Positions 21,003-31,432 of a stretch of DNA of 37,330 nt are shown piece after piece. The position numbers were made by a program, and so were the translations under genes. The stretch is from Bacteroidales bacterium. Its GTDB lineage: Bacteria > Bacteroidota > Bacteroidia > Bacteroidales > UBA12077. Position 1 is the first letter of the stretch, and every line of letters starts with the position of its first letter. The stretch lies in contig JAIPAF010000003.1 of the NCBI GenBank assembly GCA_021740225.1, positions 1-37,330 of the forward strand, read 5' to 3'. Below the pieces are notes generated by a model. It ran no database searches and was not told where the DNA came from. It saw only the letters and a program-made list of their open reading frames with translations.

Positions 21003-22088
21003 ATGAATTGTATGCATACAAAAACTTTTTTCTTTTTACGAATCCTTTCCGCTATCACCCTCTTTGCGATGATGATTTCCGGGTGTAACCAGGGAGAGAT
21101 CAGCAGAGACAGTGATGTTGCCGTACCTGTGTCGGTTACGGAAGCCAATTATGAAGCCATTAGTGAATTCCTGCAAACCACCGGCACAGTGAATGCTGTT
21201 CATTCAGCAGAGCTGGTGACCAAAGTGGAAGGAGATTATTTTCTTCAAACCAATCCGAGAACCAACCAAAAGTTTGCCCTGGGTGATCAGATAAAAGAAG
21301 GGGAAACACTAATAAAGCTAAAAAACAGGGAATATGAGCTGGGTATTCAGATTGAATCAGTAAAACTGGAGCAGAAAATAGCCAAACAGGAATATGAAAA
21401 GCAACAAGCTCTATACGAAAAGGGGGGGGTGACCCTTCGGGAACTGACCAATGCCGAAAAAACTTATATCAATGCCCAGAATGCTTTAGAAGAAGCCAAA
21501 CTGAACCTGAACAAGCTTTCCGTAACCGCTCCCATCACCGGATTTATCACTCAACTACCCTACTATACCCCGGGAACCCATATGAATGCCAATACCAACG
21601 TTGCCAAAATAATGGATTACCGTGAATTGATGCTGGAAGTGAGTTTTCCGGAGAAAACCCTGCCGATAATTCAGACCGGCCAACAAGTAAGAATAAATCA
21701 TTATTCCCTGGATACAGCGCAAGCCCTTGAGGGTAGAGTAACGGAGATTTCTCCTGCTGTGGATCCGGACACCCGTATGTTTGATGCCAAAATCCGGGTA
21801 CAGAATCAACAAAAACGGCTTCGGCCGGGAATGTTCGTAAAAGCCAATGTTATGGTAGAACATAAAGACAGTGTGATCACTCTGCCGCGGGAAATCGTGC
21901 TCGAGAGAAACGACCGGCAGATCGTATATGTGGTCCAGCAAGACCGGGCCCATGAAAGAAATGTAGTAACGGGAATTGAATCCGGCGACAGGGTTGAGAT
22001 CATTGACGGGATTGAAGAGGATGAACGGGTGGTCACCGACGGCTACGAAACACTGAGGGACCGGAGTAGGGTGAAGGTGCTGCAATGA
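21003..22088 (+). CDS. Efflux RND transporter periplasmic adaptor subunit (HlyD/MFP family)
   Basis: Lipoprotein-like N-terminus (MMISGCNQ); VEGDYFLQTNPRTNQKFALGDQIKEGETLIKLKNREYE; LSVTAPITGFITQLPYYTPGTH; RVTEISPAVDPDTRMFDAKI. Confidence 0.92.
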   Translation: MNCMHTKTFFFLRILSAITLFAMMISGCNQGEISRDSDVAVPVSVTEANYEAISEFLQTTGTVNAVHSAELVTKVEGDYFLQTNPRTNQKFALGDQIKEGETLIKLKNREYELGIQIESVKLEQKIAKQEYEKQQALYEKGGVTLRELTNAEKTYINAQNALEEAKLNLNKLSVTAPITGFITQLPYYTPGTHMNANTNVAKIMDYRELMLEVSFPEKTLPIIQTGQQVRINHYSLDTAQALEGRVTEISPAVDPDTRMFDAKIRVQNQQKRLRPGMFVKANVMVEHKDSVITLPREIVLERNDRQIVYVVQQDRAHERNVVTGIESGDRVEIIDGIEEDERVVTDGYETLRDRSRVKVLQ

Positions 22089-22144
22089 AGAATGTGAGAA
22101 TGCGTGAATGCGAGAATGTGAGAATGCATGAATGCGAGAATAAA
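22089..22144 (+). repeat. Left octamer array (GAATGNNN), including a 24-bp tandem duplication
   Basis: AGAATGTG|AGAATGCG|TGAATGCG|AGAATGTG|AGAATGCA|TGAATGCG|AGAATAAA; 22089-22112 and 22113-22136 match at 23/24 positions; starts immediately after the adaptor stop codon. Confidence 0.9.
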
Positions 22145-22167
22145 ATAATAAAATTTAAGTAAGAAAG

Positions 22168-22539
22168 ATGACCGAAAAAGAAATTTTTATTGAAAAGTTG
22201 AAGAAAATTACAAAAGAATTCGCTGTAGATATAATTTTCTTTTGTAATGCATTGAAGACCTGCAAAGCATCATCGGTTGTTGAATATCAGCTTGTAAAAT
22301 GTGCAACCTCAACGGGGGCAAATTACAGATCCGCTTGCAGAGCGAGATCCAAAGCTGAATTTTTTAGTAAAATTTGCATTGTTTTAGAAGAAGCCGATGA
22401 GTCGGACTACTGGCTTGAGATAATAGATACTGCCGGATTATCTGATAACAAAAAAGAATTGACAAGACTCAGAAAAGAAGCCAATGAAATAATAAGAATC
22501 ATAGGAAAAGCAAAAAATTCATCTTTTCCTAACAAATAG
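22168..22539 (+). CDS. Four-helix-bundle protein (S23 / rRNA intervening-sequence protein-like)
   Basis: 123-aa ORF; CKASSVVEYQLVKCATSTGANYRSACRARSKAEFFSKICIVLEEADESDYWLEII matches the family pattern. Confidence 0.88.
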   Translation: MTEKEIFIEKLKKITKEFAVDIIFFCNALKTCKASSVVEYQLVKCATSTGANYRSACRARSKAEFFSKICIVLEEADESDYWLEIIDTAGLSDNKKELTRLRKEANEIIRIIGKAKNSSFPNK

Positions 22540-22548
22540 TTAAAATTC

Positions 22549-22652
22549 AACTATTCATGCGTACAATCATTAAAATCTCCATACTTTCACTCATTCATAC
22601 ATTGAAGCATTCAAACATTCATGCATTCACGCATTTTAGCATCCAAGCATTT
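22549..22652 (-). repeat. Right octamer array, same repeat in inverted orientation (NNNCATTC)
   Basis: Phased 8-mers, clearest at 22589-22652: actcattc|atacattg|aagcattc|aaacattc|atgcattc|acgcattt|tagcatcc|aagcattt; more degenerate units back to 22549. Confidence 0.8.
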
Positions 22653-22705
22653 CATAACTAATATATCATAACATAAAGAACCACATTACAGATAAAAAGG
22701 ATTCC

Positions 22706-25700
22706 ATGATAAAACTAACCCGCTTCTCAGTAAAATACCCGGTAACCATTACAATGCTTGTTTTTGCAGTCCTGCTTCTCGGTTACATCTCATTTAACCG
22801 CCTGGGGACGGACTTGTTTCCCGATTTAAGAAATCCGCGGTTGTTTGTAGAACTTCATTCCGGAGAAAAACCCCCTTCGGAAATTGAATCGAGGTTTGCA
22901 GAAAACATAGAAAGTCTGGGTATACGCCAAAACGGAGTGACCGATGTTTCCACGGAGATTGGTACAGGAAGGATGTTAACCACCATTCATTATGAATGGG
23001 GACAGGACATGAATGCTGCCTTTCTTGATCTACAAAAAGCACTTTCTTCTGTGGCCACCAATCAGGAAGTGGACGAGCTTAACATCTACCAGAACGATCC
23101 CAACGCCGCACCCATCATGAGGGTAATCGTCAGTAATGCGGACATCAATGATATGAATCTGCTGCGACAGACGGCGGAGAATTATATTTATAACCAGTTG
23201 GTGCGGCTGAATGGAGTGGCCGATGTTGAACTCTCCGGTGAAGAAGAGGCGCAACTGCTCATTCAAACGGAAAGCTATCTTATGGACGCTCACGGTCTAT
23301 CCATGGACGAGATATCTTCCCGTATTCAGGCTTTCAACCGTGATATCAGCGGGGGTACGCTTGAGGAAAAAGGAACGGAATATCTCATCACGGGAGAAAG
23401 TTTATTGGGAAAGGTGGAGGATTTTCGCAACCTGATTGTGGGATACCAGCAGAAAACTTCCAGAAACAATGAGCGCACTCAAATTCCTGTCACCCTTGAA
23501 CAAGTGGCTGATGTGCAAATGAAAAACAAAGACCCTGATAACATGGTTTACTTCAACGGGGAGCGGTGTATCGGACTTGCCATTTACAAGGAGCAGGGCA
23601 AAAACACCGTGGATATAGTAAAATTGGTAGACCAGGCCCTGACTGATTTAAACAAGGCTTTGCCGGGCTACCGGTTCACCGTTGTAGAAAACCAGGGAGA
23701 ATACATTGACCAGGCCATTGGTGAAGTAGAAAACACTGCCCTTATCGGTATTTTATTGGCGGTTTTCGTGCTTTTCCTATTTTTACGGCGATTGCGTGTA
23801 ACGCTCATTGTTTCGGTGGCCATCCCCATATCAATCATTGCCACTTTTAATCTAATGTATTTTAACGGTTTAAGCCTAAATGTAATGACATTGGGTGGTC
23901 TTGCCCTCGGGGCCGGTATGCTGGTGGATAATGCCATTGTAGTAATCGAAAATATATTCCGCCACATCGAAGAGGGTTCCTCTGTGAAAGATGCTGCCAT
24001 ACAAGGCACGGCAGAGATGGGAGGAGCCATTACAGCCTCTACACTCACCACCATCGTAGTATTTTTACCTATTGTATACCTGCATGGTGAATCGGGCGAA
24101 TTATTCAAGGAAGAAGCCTGGACCGTGGCATTTTCTCTCTTGTCCTCTCTTTTTGTTGCTCTGCTTGTTATTCCGGTAATGACGGATAAGTGGATCAAAG
24201 CGGAGCGGAAAAAAACATTGAAATCAGTAAATATAGGGTGGTATGGCCGGTGGCTGAGCGGGATTCTCAACAAGCGATGGCTCGTTATTGGACTCAGTGC
24301 AGGTTTGATCGGCTTTGCCGCTTTATTGCTGCCGCGCGTGGGAAGTGAATTCATGCCCAAATCCCAGGGTGGCGCATTTGCTGTTTCAATAGAACTTCCC
24401 GGCGGTACCCGTTTGGAGAAAACAGCCAGGGTGGGCCGGCAGGTGCAGGCTATGATGGACGATGCCTTTGGTGATAAAGTGTCCTATTATTACCTGCATG
24501 TGGGACCCGGAACTGAAGAAGATGCTGCTACTACAGAACTAATGCAGGGAAGCAACTTCGCCAGCATTCAGGTACAACCCAAAGAGGGGGCGGTCATCCG
24601 CCCCGAAGAGGTGATTGCATTGACCAACTCCTCACTAGGTGATGTATCGGGCCTGAAAATAGAATACAAACAAAAACAAACAAGCCTGGATGAGATTCTG
24701 GGAACCGATGCATCTCCCCTTGTCGTCCAAACTTCCGGAGAAGAGCTGGAACAGATCGAATCGATCACCGAGAATATTCGTAAAGAACTTACAGGCATTG
24801 AAGGATTGTATGACGTAAAAACCAATTTTGATAAGGGCGCACCTGAAATTGAAGTCCGCGTAGACCGGTACCAGGCGGGAATGTACAATATCAGCCTGGA
24901 TCAGATAGTCAATCAGATTGAAAGGCAATTGACCGGAATGGAAATAGGGGAGTTCGACAGGGAAGGAGAGATGACCGATATTACCCTGAAATTACCTGAT
25001 TTGAGCAGAAAAGACCTTGAAGAGCTGGAGTTGAGATCGGGGAATCAGGTTATACGGCTGGACCAGATTGCCACCTTCCATACCGGTCAGTCACCGGGAA
25101 AGATATACCGGGAAAACCAAAAACGGGTGGGTAAAGTAATGGCCCGTATTGAAGAGGATATAACCCTGGATCGTGTGGTCAAAAAAGTAAATGCCAAACT
25201 GGCCGGGATAGAATTCCCAGCCCGTTATCAAACAGAAATCACAGGAGAAGAACAAAAGAGAGCAGAATCTTTCGCAAGTCTAAAATTTGCACTCATACTC
25301 TCCATCATTCTGGTATATATGGTGATGGCCTCGCAATTCGAAAGTCTGCTACATCCCATGACTATTCTGCTTTCACTGCCTCTTGCTTTCACCGGTCCCG
25401 TATTTTTATTTCTTGGAATAGGTGAATCATTTAACATCATAGCATATATTGGCATTATCATGCTGGCAGGAATAGCGGTGAACAACAGCATCATCCTTGT
25501 TGATGCCATCCGCCGGTATCAGCGACAGGGAATGGTAAAGCGGGATGCCATATTACAAGCCGGGCAAAACCGTATAAGACCCATTGTGATGACCAGCATT
25601 ACCACCATTCTGGCGCTATTACCGTTAACCATTGACTTCGGTCAGAGTGCCGAGCTCCGTTCCCCAATGGCCTGGGCTGTTATAGGAGGTTTGATCACAT

Positions 25701-25789
25701 CAACCATCCTTACGCTAGTGACCATCCCTTGCGTGTATTACATTTTTCAGCGAAAAGAAGTATTGTCAAATCCGGAAGATCAGGAATAA
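22706..25789 (+). CDS. Efflux RND transporter permease subunit
   Basis: 1027-aa ORF; GTDLFPDLRNPRLFVELHSGEKPPSEIESRF; TM4 GGLALGAGMLVDNAIVVIENIFRH; TM10 GIIMLAGIAVNNSIILVDAIRR; RIRPIVMTSITTILALLPL. Confidence 0.95.
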   Translation: MIKLTRFSVKYPVTITMLVFAVLLLGYISFNRLGTDLFPDLRNPRLFVELHSGEKPPSEIESRFAENIESLGIRQNGVTDVSTEIGTGRMLTTIHYEWGQDMNAAFLDLQKALSSVATNQEVDELNIYQNDPNAAPIMRVIVSNADINDMNLLRQTAENYIYNQLVRLNGVADVELSGEEEAQLLIQTESYLMDAHGLSMDEISSRIQAFNRDISGGTLEEKGTEYLITGESLLGKVEDFRNLIVGYQQKTSRNNERTQIPVTLEQVADVQMKNKDPDNMVYFNGERCIGLAIYKEQGKNTVDIVKLVDQALTDLNKALPGYRFTVVENQGEYIDQAIGEVENTALIGILLAVFVLFLFLRRLRVTLIVSVAIPISIIATFNLMYFNGLSLNVMTLGGLALGAGMLVDNAIVVIENIFRHIEEGSSVKDAAIQGTAEMGGAITASTLTTIVVFLPIVYLHGESGELFKEEAWTVAFSLLSSLFVALLVIPVMTDKWIKAERKKTLKSVNIGWYGRWLSGILNKRWLVIGLSAGLIGFAALLLPRVGSEFMPKSQGGAFAVSIELPGGTRLEKTARVGRQVQAMMDDAFGDKVSYYYLHVGPGTEEDAATTELMQGSNFASIQVQPKEGAVIRPEEVIALTNSSLGDVSGLKIEYKQKQTSLDEILGTDASPLVVQTSGEELEQIESITENIRKELTGIEGLYDVKTNFDKGAPEIEVRVDRYQAGMYNISLDQIVNQIERQLTGMEIGEFDREGEMTDITLKLPDLSRKDLEELELRSGNQVIRLDQIATFHTGQSPGKIYRENQKRVGKVMARIEEDITLDRVVKKVNAKLAGIEFPARYQTEITGEEQKRAESFASLKFALILSIILVYMVMASQFESLLHPMTILLSLPLAFTGPVFLFLGIGESFNIIAYIGIIMLAGIAVNNSIILVDAIRRYQRQGMVKRDAILQAGQNRIRPIVMTSITTILALLPLTIDFGQSAELRSPMAWAVIGGLITSTILTLVTIPCVYYIFQRKEVLSNPEDQE

Positions 25790-25798
25790 GCCTTCACT

Positions 25799-28700
25799 AT
25801 GAACAAATTTGTAAAGCGAAAAATACTGGTCTCCATGCTGTTCCTGGCTTTAGTCATGCTGGGAATCTTTTCCTATCGATCGATGCCGGTTGAACTATTT
25901 CCAAGCGCCGAAACACCGGTACTCTATGTCCAGGTAAACTACCGTTCCCAAATAAACCCTCATTTTGTGGAAAAGGATGCCATCATTCCCCTGGAGGGGA
26001 TCATCAGTGAAGAAGAAGGTGTTGATGAGCTGGAATCGAACATTTCACAAAGGCGGGCAACCATTGTGGTTACCTTCAGGCAGGATGTGGACATCAACTA
26101 TGCTTATCTGAAGCTGGAGCAAAAGATACAGGAGTTTCAGCGGGAACACCGGGAAAACTATATGGTAAACCTGGTCAAGGTCAATACCGACATGTCCTCC
26201 AACCAGTTTATGACCATCCAGGCGCGGGGTGAAGGCGATATCGACCGGATTCGGAATGTCGTTGATCAGGAGATCCTTTCCGATCTGGTGGCAGTGAATG
26301 GCGTAGGTGATGCTACGGTTCAGGGAGGACAGGAACGATCCGTTGAAGTAATTTTTGATGAGGAAACCTGTGAGGCCCTTCACATCACACCCGGAAGGAT
26401 CAATAACCGGCTCAATATGTATTCCAATCAGCGGCTATATGGCGGGATGGTCTATGATGTGGGCAAACGCTGGATTGTAAACGTATCCGGTGAATTAACC
26501 AGCATCAATGAACTAGGGGATATCATACTGGATGACAACGGTAACGTTCGTCTGCAGGATGTGGCTACAATCAACATGGGAAAAAAAGAGCGGGAAACCA
26601 TCAGCCGTGTAAACGGCATGGAAGCAGTGACCATAACGATCTATAACGACGCCAATGTAAATGATATCACACTCTACCATAAGCTACAGGATGCCATAGA
26701 AAATATTAACTCGGAGATGGCTTCCAATCGAGTTGAACTGGTTATCCAGAGCTGTGAGGCTGAAACCATGGAAGAGAACATGAATCAGATACTCAGCCTT
26801 GCTTTAATCGGCGGATTACTGGCCATCTTCGTCCTATGGATATTCCTGCGGAACATACGTTTGGTAGTTGTTGTGGCGCTTGCGATACCCATTTCCATCT
26901 TCGCCTCGATTAATTTTCTCTATGCTGCCGGCATTACCATCAACACGCTCACTTTAATGGGTGTGGCCCTGGCCATCGGGATGCTCCTGGATAACAGTGT
27001 GGTGGTGCTGGAAAATATCTATCGGTTAAGGACAGAAGGTGCCACTCCAGTAGGTGCTGCATCCGGAGGAACAAGACAGGTGATCCGTGCCGTGACGGCC
27101 GCTACTCTTACAACAATAGCCGTTTTTCTGCCCTTTGCATTTTCTACAGAGTTCTTCATTAAACTCTTGGGGAACAATGTGGGGTTTTCCATTATTTTTA
27201 CCTTGCTGGTGTCGCTTCTTGTGGCACTAATATTTATACCGATGGTGGTATACCAATTCCTCAAAGCCCGCAGGAAAGCCCTGACCCTCCATTCGATAAA
27301 TTTTCGAAAACCAATAATTCGCGGATACCTGATATTGTTAAGATTTTGTCTGCGCCATCCTGCCCAGGTGCTCTTTACCATGGTCTTGCTATTTTTTGCC
27401 GCAGTAGTGATTAGTCTGTCAGTTAGTGTAAACACCCTACAGGAAGCGGAAACAGACAGTTTTCGGGTTTCAATCACCATGCCGGGGGGTACAACCCTGA
27501 AAACCTCCGATGAAACGGTAAGCAATATGGAGGACGATCTCGGAAATATAGAGGAGATTGATGAAGTAGTCAGCAACATTGAAGCAGAAGAAGCTTCCAT
27601 GATCATCCAATTGAAGGAAGAGTTTAAAAAGATCAACGACCGGAGTGTAGCTCAAATAAAAGATGATGTACTGAATAGGCTGGATGTATATAACAACGTT
27701 CATGTTAGCATTACGGACATGACCTCGTCTGATGACAGCAACTTCAATATTGGAGGCGGTGCTTCAGATTTTTTGAGTTTCATGGGTGTCGGACAACAAA
27801 CGGAAGAGGTGCTCATCAAGGGTTCGAATTATGAAGATATGGTTTTGGTTGGTGAAAATGTAGAGTATATACTTTCTGAAGAATCGGATAATGTAACCTC
27901 GGCGCGCCTGCAAATATCGCGTGAACAGCCGGAGGTGAGGGTACTTTTCGACCAACGCCTAATGGAGGCTTTAAATATAGATTACACCAGTGTGCAACAG
28001 GAGATGAACGCTTTCTCCAGGCAACTCGAGAGTGGTATGACCTTTAAACAGGGTGATGAGGAATACGATATTACCATACGCAGCAAACAGGCTGAAGAAA
28101 ATCAAAAAGAACAAAAAGGCATGGAAGATCTCCGGCATTTGCTCATAGATGCTGACAATGATAGTGTTGTTTCCTCCCATCATCTAATGGATTTCAGTTC
28201 CCTGCGCTATAGTGAAGGAATTGCTTCCATTCACCGGCAAAACAGGGAAAAAAGCATCTCGGTAAATTACCGCTTTTCATCTGAAATCAATGAAGACAAT
28301 GATTTGCTGGAGAGTGCCCGTGCCGAAGTAGACGAACTGATTTCCGGTTTATACGTTCCACCGGGAGTAGCGGTAGAAGTACAGCATGAGCAGGATCAAT
28401 ACGGTGAATTCAAAATGCTTATTCTTGCTGCCTTTATACTGATCTATATGATCCTTGCTTCCGTATTTGAAAGCTTTTCCACCCCATTCGTCCTGTTGTT
28501 TTCCATACCCTTGGCGGCCATCGGATCGCTCATGGGGCTCATTTTAACCGGAAATTCCCTGCTCAATGCCAATACCCTTATTGGGTTTCTCATCCTCCTG
28601 GGAGTGGTGGTCAATAATGGGATCATACTGATTGATTTTGTGCAAAATATGAGGTTCAATGGAGCCAGGATTGCACGAGCCGTTATCAGTGCAGGATTGC

Positions 28701-30514
28701 TTCGTGTGCGCCCGATTCTCATTACCGTGATCACCACAGTTATAGGAATGCTTCCACTGGCCATGGGACAGGGCGAATATGTAGGTAGCATTGGAGCTCC
28801 TTTTGCCATCACAGTGATTGGCGGGTTGCTGTTTTCCACCTTGTTCACACTGGTAATCATTCCCACCGCCTACTACGCAATGGAAACCACCCTTCGTTGG
28901 TTTGCTTCGCTTCCGCTTCACATCAAGATCATCAACTGGATGCTTTTGCCGGCAGGTATAGTGCTGGCCATCATAGAGGCGGATACCCTGCTGTGGCAAA
29001 TGGTTGGCGTGGTTGCCGTATTGACTGTTGTGCCTGCAACGACCTGGTTTTTCACCGAAAGCCTGCGTAAAGCATCAGCGGACGTAATCGACAGAAATAG
29101 TGACATCGTTATCCGTATCCGAAACCTGGTAAAAATCTATGACCGGCCTTCAAGACCCCTGCGTGAATGGCTGGGGAACAAGCATCTGAATGAACTCCTT
29201 GGTATGGGAGAAGAAAAACAAAATTCACGTCAGGAGCTGATATGGCAGATGCCGCTTCTGGGCTTCCTCGGATGGTTTGCCTGGTTTTATCAGTCGGGGG
29301 GATTTTGGACATACATCTTATCTGTGGCGTTATGGTTTTACTTAATTTTCCTGATTAAACGTCTCATTACCCTGTTTCCCTCATCCCGTGTTAAAAGATG
29401 GTTTTCCCGGCTGCATTGGATTGTTCTTCGGTTTTTCCCTCTTGTTATACTCGGAGTCTATCAAATCAAATTCACGAATACGGGAGCCACGGTTGTCTGG
29501 GGATTACTCACTTATTTCCTTCTGGGCATTTATCTTACTTCACAACACCTCAAGGAAAACCGGGTGAACACCGCCCGCATCAAAGGGCGTTTTGCCGGTC
29601 TGAAAAAACTATGGATAAACCTTGTGCGCGCCGTGCCGATGATCGGTCGTGAGCGAAAGCCTTTCAAAGCGCTGAAGAGTGTCTCGATGGATATCGGTCA
29701 TGGAATGTTTGGCCTGCTTGGCCCCAACGGAGCAGGCAAGACAACCCTGATGCGGATTATATGTGGTGTGCTGGAGCAGAGCTATGGGAAGATCACCATC
29801 AACGAGATCGATACCCTTGAAAAACGGGAAGAATTGCAGGGGTTGATCGGATATTTGCCCCAGGAATTCGGCATGTATGAAAATATGACCGCCAGGGATT
29901 ACCTGGATTACCAGGCCATACTCAAAGGTTTGCACAATCCGCAAACCCGTAAGGAAAGGGTGGACAATGTATTGCAGTCGGTTCACATGATTTCCAATGC
30001 CAATAAAAAGATCGGTTCGTTCTCAGGGGGTATGAAACAACGGATAGGAATTGCCCAGGTATTGCTGAACCTACCCCGTATACTGGTGGTGGATGAGCCA
30101 ACAGCCGGACTGGATCCCCGTGAACGCATCCGCTTCCGAAATCTTTTGGTAGAGCTGAGCAGTGAACGGGTAGTGATCTTCTCTACCCATATTATCGAAG
30201 ATATTGCCAGTTCGTGCAACCAACTGGCAGTGCTTGACAAAGGAAACCTGAAATATTACGGAAAACCGGCTGAGATGGCATCACTGGCAAAAAACAGGGT
30301 ATGGCAGTTTGATGTTCCGGCAGAACAATTTGAAGGGATAGCCCAGGATTTGAAAGTGGTTCATCATATAAGAAAAGGAGAAAATATCCGTGTGAGGGTA
30401 GTGAATCCCGACAAGCCGCATGAAAATGCCCAAAATGTTACTGCTGTGCTTGAAGACGCCTATATATGGCTCCTGAACTTCAGCGGAAAAAACAATACAA
30501 TTCAATCATCTTAA
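25799..30514 (+). CDS. RND efflux permease fused in-frame to a C-terminal ABC transporter ATPase domain
   Basis: Single 1571-aa ORF. Residues ~1-1035 are a full RND permease (MPVELFPSAETPVLYVQVNYRSQINPHFVEKD; GMLLDNSVVVLENIYR; VVNNGIILIDFVQNM; RVRPILITVITTVIGMLPLAMG). Residues ~1290-1571 are an ABC ATPase (FGLLGPNGAGKTT at 29711-29746; SFSGGMKQRIGIAQ; ILVVDEPTAGLD; IFSTHIIED). Confidence 0.93.
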   Translation: MNKFVKRKILVSMLFLALVMLGIFSYRSMPVELFPSAETPVLYVQVNYRSQINPHFVEKDAIIPLEGIISEEEGVDELESNISQRRATIVVTFRQDVDINYAYLKLEQKIQEFQREHRENYMVNLVKVNTDMSSNQFMTIQARGEGDIDRIRNVVDQEILSDLVAVNGVGDATVQGGQERSVEVIFDEETCEALHITPGRINNRLNMYSNQRLYGGMVYDVGKRWIVNVSGELTSINELGDIILDDNGNVRLQDVATINMGKKERETISRVNGMEAVTITIYNDANVNDITLYHKLQDAIENINSEMASNRVELVIQSCEAETMEENMNQILSLALIGGLLAIFVLWIFLRNIRLVVVVALAIPISIFASINFLYAAGITINTLTLMGVALAIGMLLDNSVVVLENIYRLRTEGATPVGAASGGTRQVIRAVTAATLTTIAVFLPFAFSTEFFIKLLGNNVGFSIIFTLLVSLLVALIFIPMVVYQFLKARRKALTLHSINFRKPIIRGYLILLRFCLRHPAQVLFTMVLLFFAAVVISLSVSVNTLQEAETDSFRVSITMPGGTTLKTSDETVSNMEDDLGNIEEIDEVVSNIEAEEASMIIQLKEEFKKINDRSVAQIKDDVLNRLDVYNNVHVSITDMTSSDDSNFNIGGGASDFLSFMGVGQQTEEVLIKGSNYEDMVLVGENVEYILSEESDNVTSARLQISREQPEVRVLFDQRLMEALNIDYTSVQQEMNAFSRQLESGMTFKQGDEEYDITIRSKQAEENQKEQKGMEDLRHLLIDADNDSVVSSHHLMDFSSLRYSEGIASIHRQNREKSISVNYRFSSEINEDNDLLESARAEVDELISGLYVPPGVAVEVQHEQDQYGEFKMLILAAFILIYMILASVFESFSTPFVLLFSIPLAAIGSLMGLILTGNSLLNANTLIGFLILLGVVVNNGIILIDFVQNMRFNGARIARAVISAGLLRVRPILITVITTVIGMLPLAMGQGEYVGSIGAPFAITVIGGLLFSTLFTLVIIPTAYYAMETTLRWFASLPLHIKIINWMLLPAGIVLAIIEADTLLWQMVGVVAVLTVVPATTWFFTESLRKASADVIDRNSDIVIRIRNLVKIYDRPSRPLREWLGNKHLNELLGMGEEKQNSRQELIWQMPLLGFLGWFAWFYQSGGFWTYILSVALWFYLIFLIKRLITLFPSSRVKRWFSRLHWIVLRFFPLVILGVYQIKFTNTGATVVWGLLTYFLLGIYLTSQHLKENRVNTARIKGRFAGLKKLWINLVRAVPMIGRERKPFKALKSVSMDIGHGMFGLLGPNGAGKTTLMRIICGVLEQSYGKITINEIDTLEKREELQGLIGYLPQEFGMYENMTARDYLDYQAILKGLHNPQTRKERVDNVLQSVHMISNANKKIGSFSGGMKQRIGIAQVLLNLPRILVVDEPTAGLDPRERIRFRNLLVELSSERVVIFSTHIIEDIASSCNQLAVLDKGNLKYYGKPAEMASLAKNRVWQFDVPAEQFEGIAQDLKVVHHIRKGENIRVRVVNPDKPHENAQNVTAVLEDAYIWLLNFSGKNNTIQSS

Positions 30515-30540
30515 AACAAGGAGGAAATTTTCAAACCAGT

Positions 30541-31254
30541 ATGGTAAAACTGATAAAACATTGGCTTATCAACTCCGTGCAAATCACCCGGCACAACCTG
30601 AAAATCATATTCGGGGATAAATTTCCCTTCTTCCTGTTGGGGGCATTTGCCATATTCATCTTCATCGTGTTAATCAATTTGTTCGGGGGTGATCCGTTCA
30701 CCAGTGAATCGGTTTATTCACTGCTGGTCTTTGAAGGGATCATCATCGTATTTTTCCCCACCATCTATGCGGTACAGACGGATATTGACAAACGGACCAT
30801 AGAGATTCTTTTCGGCATTCCCGATTACCGTTATAAAGTATGGCTAGTACGCCTTCTGATCGCCTTCATCGTATGCTGGGTTCTTCTGGCGGTACTGGCC
30901 CTGATGTGCTATTTCGCACTGGTCAGTTTTCCCGTGGGCACCATGATCTATTATGTCATCTTTCCGGTTTTTGCCCTGGGAAGCCTGGGATTCCTCATTG
31001 CAACCCTGGTAAAAAACGGAAACAGCGCTGCGGTTGTAGCTATAATCATTGGTTTGGGCTTATGGGTATTATCCGAGGCATTGGTAGATAGTCAGTGGAA
31101 CGTCTTTCTCAACCCGTTTGATGAGGCCGATATGGCCGGACAAATATGGGAAGCTACCATAAGGAAGAACCGCCTGTTCCTTTTCGTTGCCGGAGTGGTA
31201 TTTCTTGTGGGTGGTTTACTAGGTCTCCAGAACCGGGAAGGGTTTATGCAGTAA
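30541..31254 (+). CDS. ABC-2 type transporter permease subunit
   Basis: SD AAGGAGGAAA before ATG 30541 (the ORF track begins at 30466, overlapping the previous gene). MVKLIKHWLINSVQITRHNLKIIFGDKFPFFLLGAFAIFIFIVLI...; about six TM segments; TDIDKRTIEILFGIPDYRYKVWLVRLL typical of ABC-2 permeases. Confidence 0.82.
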   Translation: MVKLIKHWLINSVQITRHNLKIIFGDKFPFFLLGAFAIFIFIVLINLFGGDPFTSESVYSLLVFEGIIIVFFPTIYAVQTDIDKRTIEILFGIPDYRYKVWLVRLLIAFIVCWVLLAVLALMCYFALVSFPVGTMIYYVIFPVFALGSLGFLIATLVKNGNSAAVVAIIIGLGLWVLSEALVDSQWNVFLNPFDEADMAGQIWEATIRKNRLFLFVAGVVFLVGGLLGLQNREGFMQ

Positions 31255-31268
31255 AATTGTTTGAAAAG

Positions 31269-31432
31269 AGTTTGAGGGTTTGACAGAAGTTTGAGGGTTG
31301 AGCCATTGATGGTTATTTATTGTCATTGATGGTCATTAAGTACCCATTTGTTGCCATTCAGTGGTTAATTCGATGGTCATTCAGTGGTCATTCGATTGTA
31401 ATTCAGGAACATTGATTACCATCCGTCAAAAG
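31269..31432. repeat. Degenerate short tandem repeat region: 12-bp direct repeat then a ~10-12 bp CATTnnnTGGT-type array
   Basis: agtttgagggtt at 31269-31280 and 31288-31299; then ccattgatggt/tatttattgt/cattgatggt/cattaagtac/.../ccattcagtgg/ttaattcgatgg/tcattcagtgg/tcattcgattg/taattcagg/...cattgattaccatcc. Confidence 0.65.

Follow-up and report, generated by a model that had tools for sequence, protein, structure and literature searches.

A four-helix-bundle gene between matched inverted octamer arrays at an RND operon junction in a Bacteroidales genome: a probable small mobile cassette

Why should the adaptor and permease genes of an RND efflux operon, which are normally adjacent, be separated by a small open reading frame (ORF) bracketed by repeats? 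The question is raised by a stretch of 37,330 nucleotides (the window; positions 1 to 37,330 of contig JAIPAF010000003.1, assembly GCA_021740225.1) from a Bacteroidales bacterium, in which a four-helix-bundle gene lies between an octamer array and an inverted array. A first-pass annotation, made from the letters alone, had suggested a mobile or domesticated cassette. The analysis favours, with a probability of roughly 0.7, a small mobile cassette resembling the intervening sequence (IVS) of 23S rRNA genes, in which an S23/IVP four-helix-bundle gene is carried between lineage-specific inverted tandem arrays. It is read as a mobile cassette and not as ordinary operon content because the gene-plus-arms design recurs across many groups of bacteria and in some archaea, each protein lineage having its own repeat. 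Mobility is upheld by comparison between genomes, but domestication is not demonstrated, although purifying selection acts on the family (median dN/dS 0.13).

The cassette and its protein

The arrangement of octamer array, four-helix ORF and inverted array was confirmed by unit phasing, Tandem Repeats Finder (TRF), arm scores and profile matches (Table 1). TRF reports period 8 for the left array over 22089-22141 and also period 24 at 96%. The right array consists of inverted NNNCATTC units; of the span originally assigned to it (22549-22652), periodicity is clear over 22580-22651, with strict phase at 22608-22636, but the first 30 nt or so (22549-22580) are only loosely periodic. As had been noticed, the left array and the reverse complement of the right have a sequence in common (AATGCGTGAATGC). 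An inverted-repeat search paired 22092-22141 with 22593-22642 (76% complementarity over 50 nt). The own-arm score is 43, a value that did not occur among 274 swapped flank pairs or in 1000 dinucleotide shuffles, where all scores were lower. The cassette lies outside any 23S rRNA gene, directly between the adaptor stop codon and the permease, yet its complementary termini could form a stem, as in the 23S rRNA IVS. A search of 21900-22800 against Rfam gave no match.

The protein matches TIGR02436 (8e-21, 74.3 bits; curated cut-off 24) and PF05635 (6e-12, 46.1 bits; curated cut-off 33.8). AlphaFold predicts a four-helix structure for it (mean pLDDT 87.5), whose best fold matches are 2rld and 2gsc (TM, normalised to the query, 0.73-0.81). 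The accessory protein Avd of diversity-generating retroelements (DGRs) was correctly named as a related fold, its structures (4dwl/8ub7) being matched more weakly. The solved homologue 2GSC is a pentamer, according to the title of its paper. Genes of this family, present in 1 to 21 copies in 112 of 147 order-level relatives, are currently annotated just as 'four helix bundle protein' or '23S rRNA IVP'.

Matched inverted arms recur and follow the protein lineage

Inverted complementary arms (score at least 32) flank 46% of 138 family ORFs from the order-level relatives, a sample skewed to high-scoring family members, compared with none of 283 control genes in the same genomes; these arm statistics rest on our own gene calls and scoring threshold. 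A cross-phylum sample, which includes Planctomycetes, Acidobacteria, Deltaproteobacteria, Chloroflexi and a Methanomicrobiales archaeon, among others, was drawn with a tight alignment and is biased toward the RA[AT]VSIP[SA]N subfamily; in it 50 of 84 ORFs pass the threshold, as against 1% of swapped pairs. Arrays of at least four units number 166 in real flanks and one in shuffled flanks. The period is 7 in 108 arrays and 8 in 51, and units vary from locus to locus but agree between the arms of any one locus. At orthologous junctions, arms of the same locus match better than arms across loci (mean 28.5 versus 20.2). Of 109 arrays tested, 44 show uneven conservation within the unit, the pattern that a core plus a spacer should give. 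Family ORFs are also co-directional with both neighbours more often than control genes (81% versus 52%). Comparison across genomes shows inverted arms to be general for these genes.

The unit itself is not general. The window's genome, a metagenome-assembled genome (MAG; 1.6 Mb, 57% complete), carries three family genes, and GAATG arms occur at the window copy alone; one of the others has heptamer arms of GCAGTAG type (L001) and the other a left-hand heptamer array (L002). The GAATGNNN octamer, at first taken as a signature for the whole family, is therefore specific to a subclade, and it is the matching of the arms that is general.

It is clear that the unit tracks the protein. Among pairs at non-homologous junctions in different genera, arms are shared by 31% of those with at least 60% protein identity but by 0.6% of those below 30% (permutation test, p = 0.0005), and distant copies inside one genome seldom have arms in common. 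Phased AATG octamers accompany every one of the eight window-clade proteins (at least 57% identity, the window counted) and 2 of 155 others; L233 and L234, whose proteins are about 50% identical to the clade, have different units. The clade occupies about seven different, unrelated junctions, including a second RND operon, an ABC permease|ATPase pair, an RND-type permease and an ABC-type operon. Searches gave RAATG arrays for nine of nine genomes with the clade and for none of five genomes lacking it; a sixth genome without the clade (G126) differs in having nine overlapping RAATG hits, all at one other four-helix locus. Such comparisons show the arm unit to move with its protein lineage to unrelated operon junctions. 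In one genome a window-type gene is present in three copies inside about 5 kb (L228, G120:C58).

Arrays also occur alone. Whether octamer arrays elsewhere in the genome each flank a four-helix ORF had been raised as a check; in the genus, GAATG arrays without an adjoining family ORF outnumber those with one. The MAG has about nine GAATG sites, several of them inverted pairs without an ORF, one of which lies between the adaptor and permease genes in another RND operon (L019). With the strict GAATG pattern, arrays were found in five of five genus members and in none of ten sampled sister-genus genomes.

Empty sites and products of transposition

Orthologous efflux operons, proposed for comparison by the first-pass annotation, do include empty sites. 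In other genera and families the adaptor|permease gap is mostly 12-153 nt. At a second RND operon, G031 and G010 have a gap of 15-17 nt, whereas G002 and G003 have a cassette there and a gap of about 480 nt; with its two stops, the copy in G003 (L226/L334) is in decay. One orthologous adaptor|permease junction (L060, G021:C73) holds a PDDEXK_3 (GxxExxY) ORF between two direct repeat copies of about 115 bp.

About ten near-identical elements in G074 have octamer arms enclosed by GGTACTAC...GTAGAACC ends. Together with L381 they provide eight two-ended elements, six of which are flanked by perfect 8-bp target duplications; the ends resemble terminal inverted repeats (TIRs), of GGTWCTAC type. Two window-type genes (L225 and L230) share the GGTACTAC-type left end, and L390, which combines this end and the arms with an internally deleted ORF, derives from the cassette by deletion. 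The arrays, described at first as terminal, are not necessarily outermost: GGTACTAC-type ends lie further out in two related lineages. By comparison, empty sites exist, and the 8-bp duplications and deletion derivatives of these two lineages are products of transposition.

Several observations weigh against a mobile cassette. The sister species G002 and G004 have octamer-type arrays but no ORF at the junction orthologous to that of the window, so that arms may be older than the gene or persist after its loss. No GGTACTAC-type end, TIR or target duplication was found in the flanks of the window cassette, so its own insertion is not dated, and the 8-bp duplications occur in derivatives, never in a full cassette. 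Recognisable arms are missing from about half of family copies, and uneven unit conservation may partly reflect duplication of higher-order units, such as the 24-bp unit of the window. A mobilising enzyme was not identified.

Searches for such an enzyme gave mixed results. RVT_1 had no match in the window's genome (57% complete), G002, G003 or G004, nor was a DGR-type reverse transcriptase with a template and variable repeat pair found there; a reverse transcriptase acting in trans was rejected, as such genes are unassociated with four-helix copy number (odds ratio (OR) 1.2). Presence and copy number of Y1 tyrosine transposase genes (PF01797) do correlate with four-helix-bundle copy number across 147 relatives (OR 10.7, rho 0.62), and DDE_Tnp_1 presence is associated with the four-helix gene at OR 2.6. 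However, PF01797 had no match in the window's genome, G002 or G004, and in the latter two, matches to Y1, reverse transcriptase and DDE_Tnp_1 are all absent. Sampled Y1 genes also have other ends, namely palindromes like repetitive extragenic palindromes (REPs) and not heptamer arms. For a REP-associated tyrosine transposase (RAYT) acting in trans, the Y1 association counts in favour, and the different ends and Y1-free genomes count against. One Y1 transposase gene (L372, G110:C21) lies between long inverted clusters of GCTGCGTAGCAGC-type palindromes.

Mechanism and alternative explanations

In a mobile cassette of this kind, the protein, pentameric in its solved homologue, probably recognises its own tandem repeats. 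Each unit would present a constant core and a variable spacer, perhaps with one unit per protomer, and binding may mark or protect the cassette. As the protein has no catalytic domain, movement would need an enzyme in trans or host recombination. Cassettes may be best maintained at short gaps between co-directional genes, where they would be expressed with the host operon and do little harm.

Alternatively, the element may act in RNA, as the 23S rRNA IVS does, a possibility that we regard as rather unlikely. The arms would pair in the transcript, spread would be by RNA copying or descent, and the insertion would be tolerable because RNase III, by cutting the stem, would remove the ORF segment. 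Folding of the cassette RNA is indeed predicted to bring the arms together in a stem that encloses the ORF (z -5.25), the strong co-directional bias fits, and the Coxiella IVS, which is excised by RNase III (PMC4990558), has the protein family and terminal inverted repeats in common with the cassette. However, selection on an RNA stem predicts an excess of G-U among arm mismatches on the sense strand, and none was seen (G-U 103, A-C 111). This lack of asymmetry speaks against RNA-stem selection on the arms and is the reason for ranking arms that act in DNA first. Nor does RNA copying agree with the missing association of reverse transcriptase genes, and target duplications indicate DNA transposition.

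That the protein is a domesticated operon regulator, binding the arms in mRNA to tune the ratio of the flanking subunits, is improbable. Cassettes do recur at junctions within complexes (mutA|mutB, sufB|sufC, cysD|cysN, sdhA|sdhB and RND adaptor|permease, as read from neighbour sequences), and both purifying selection and the better match of arms within a locus than between orthologous loci would suit a regulator. Against this, the gene is patchy at any given junction, the G003 copy is in decay, and subunit junctions are frequent in operons regardless. Least probable is neutral hitch-hiking, by which host-specific tandem repeats spread through slippage and template switching, hairpin-templated repair makes the arms mirror each other and the gene is incidental. 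Template switching can homogenise inverted arrays, and the prevalence of ORF-less GAATG arrays in the genus would be expected. A host-specific repeat alone is ruled out, however, by the link between arm unit and protein clade: across genera the unit is tied to the protein, not to the genome, and control genes of the same genomes lack such arms. A mobile cassette with arms that act in DNA remains preferred.

Relation to known elements

The 23S rRNA IVS with an S23/IVP ORF (Coxiella, Leptospira), described as selfish, resembles the cassette in protein family, terminal inverted repeats and an ORF in the loop; the cassette differs in lying between protein-coding genes and in its arms, which are built of tandem 7-8 bp units that go with the protein clade. 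REP/RAYT REPtrons and TIRtrons (PMC3733652) likewise have a gene between inverted repeats and many solo copies per genome, but the cassette has no tyrosine transposase. The octamer elements of two lineages are like miniature inverted-repeat transposable elements in their short TIR-like ends, 8-bp target duplications and internal deletions, although the parent cassette encodes a non-catalytic four-helix protein. Short tandem 7-bp intergenic units such as the cyanobacterial short tandemly repeated repetitive (STRR) and TAACTGA heptamer repeats, reported from Bacteroidetes also, resemble the arms but are almost exclusively direct, and no link to this gene is drawn (PMC4679880). Avd shares a related fold, but no reverse transcriptase or template repeat was found with the cassette. 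PF05635 genes have been reported within cas operons (PMC3936711).

For genes of this family that lie outside rRNA, no earlier description of inverted tandem arms was found in the literature, subscription papers being mostly outside the search. With lineage-matched arms the family gains a place among mobile elements beyond rRNA, as well as a specific candidate ligand; the arms also connect the 23S rRNA IVS to a wider class and are one possible source of intergenic short tandem repeats in prokaryotes. The chances are about even that such a class extends over bacteria and archaea, defined by a non-catalytic four-helix ring protein, lineage-matched inverted arms of tandem 7-8 bp units, solo-array derivatives and operon junctions, with the 23S rRNA IVS as its best-known special case.

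Other features of the window

Table 1. Cassette and host operon in the window
Feature	Position	Strand	Basis or remark
RND efflux membrane-fusion (adaptor) gene, host operon, upstream of cassette	21003..22088	+	HlyD_D23
5' arm	22090..22144	+	six phased GAATGNNN octamers (GAATG from 22090, 8-nt spacing), then degenerate GAATA unit; begins 1 nt past adaptor stop codon
Four-helix-bundle ORF (23S rRNA IVP / TIGR02436 family), 123 aa	22168..22539	+	profile matches, AlphaFold model
3' arm, inverted octamer array (NNNCATT[CT])	22580..22651	+	pairs with 5' arm; predicted RNA stem spans ORF
RND permease gene, host operon, downstream of cassette	22706..25789	+	ACR_tran

Downstream of the host permease, a single ORF of 1571 aa (25799-30514) fuses an AcrB-type RND permease with an ABC ATPase domain, and RND hits in relatives likewise include frames of about 1570 aa. 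A separate set of tandem repeats, degenerate and with periods of 19 and 10-11/22 bp, is present at 31259-31406, downstream of the ORF at 30466-31254.
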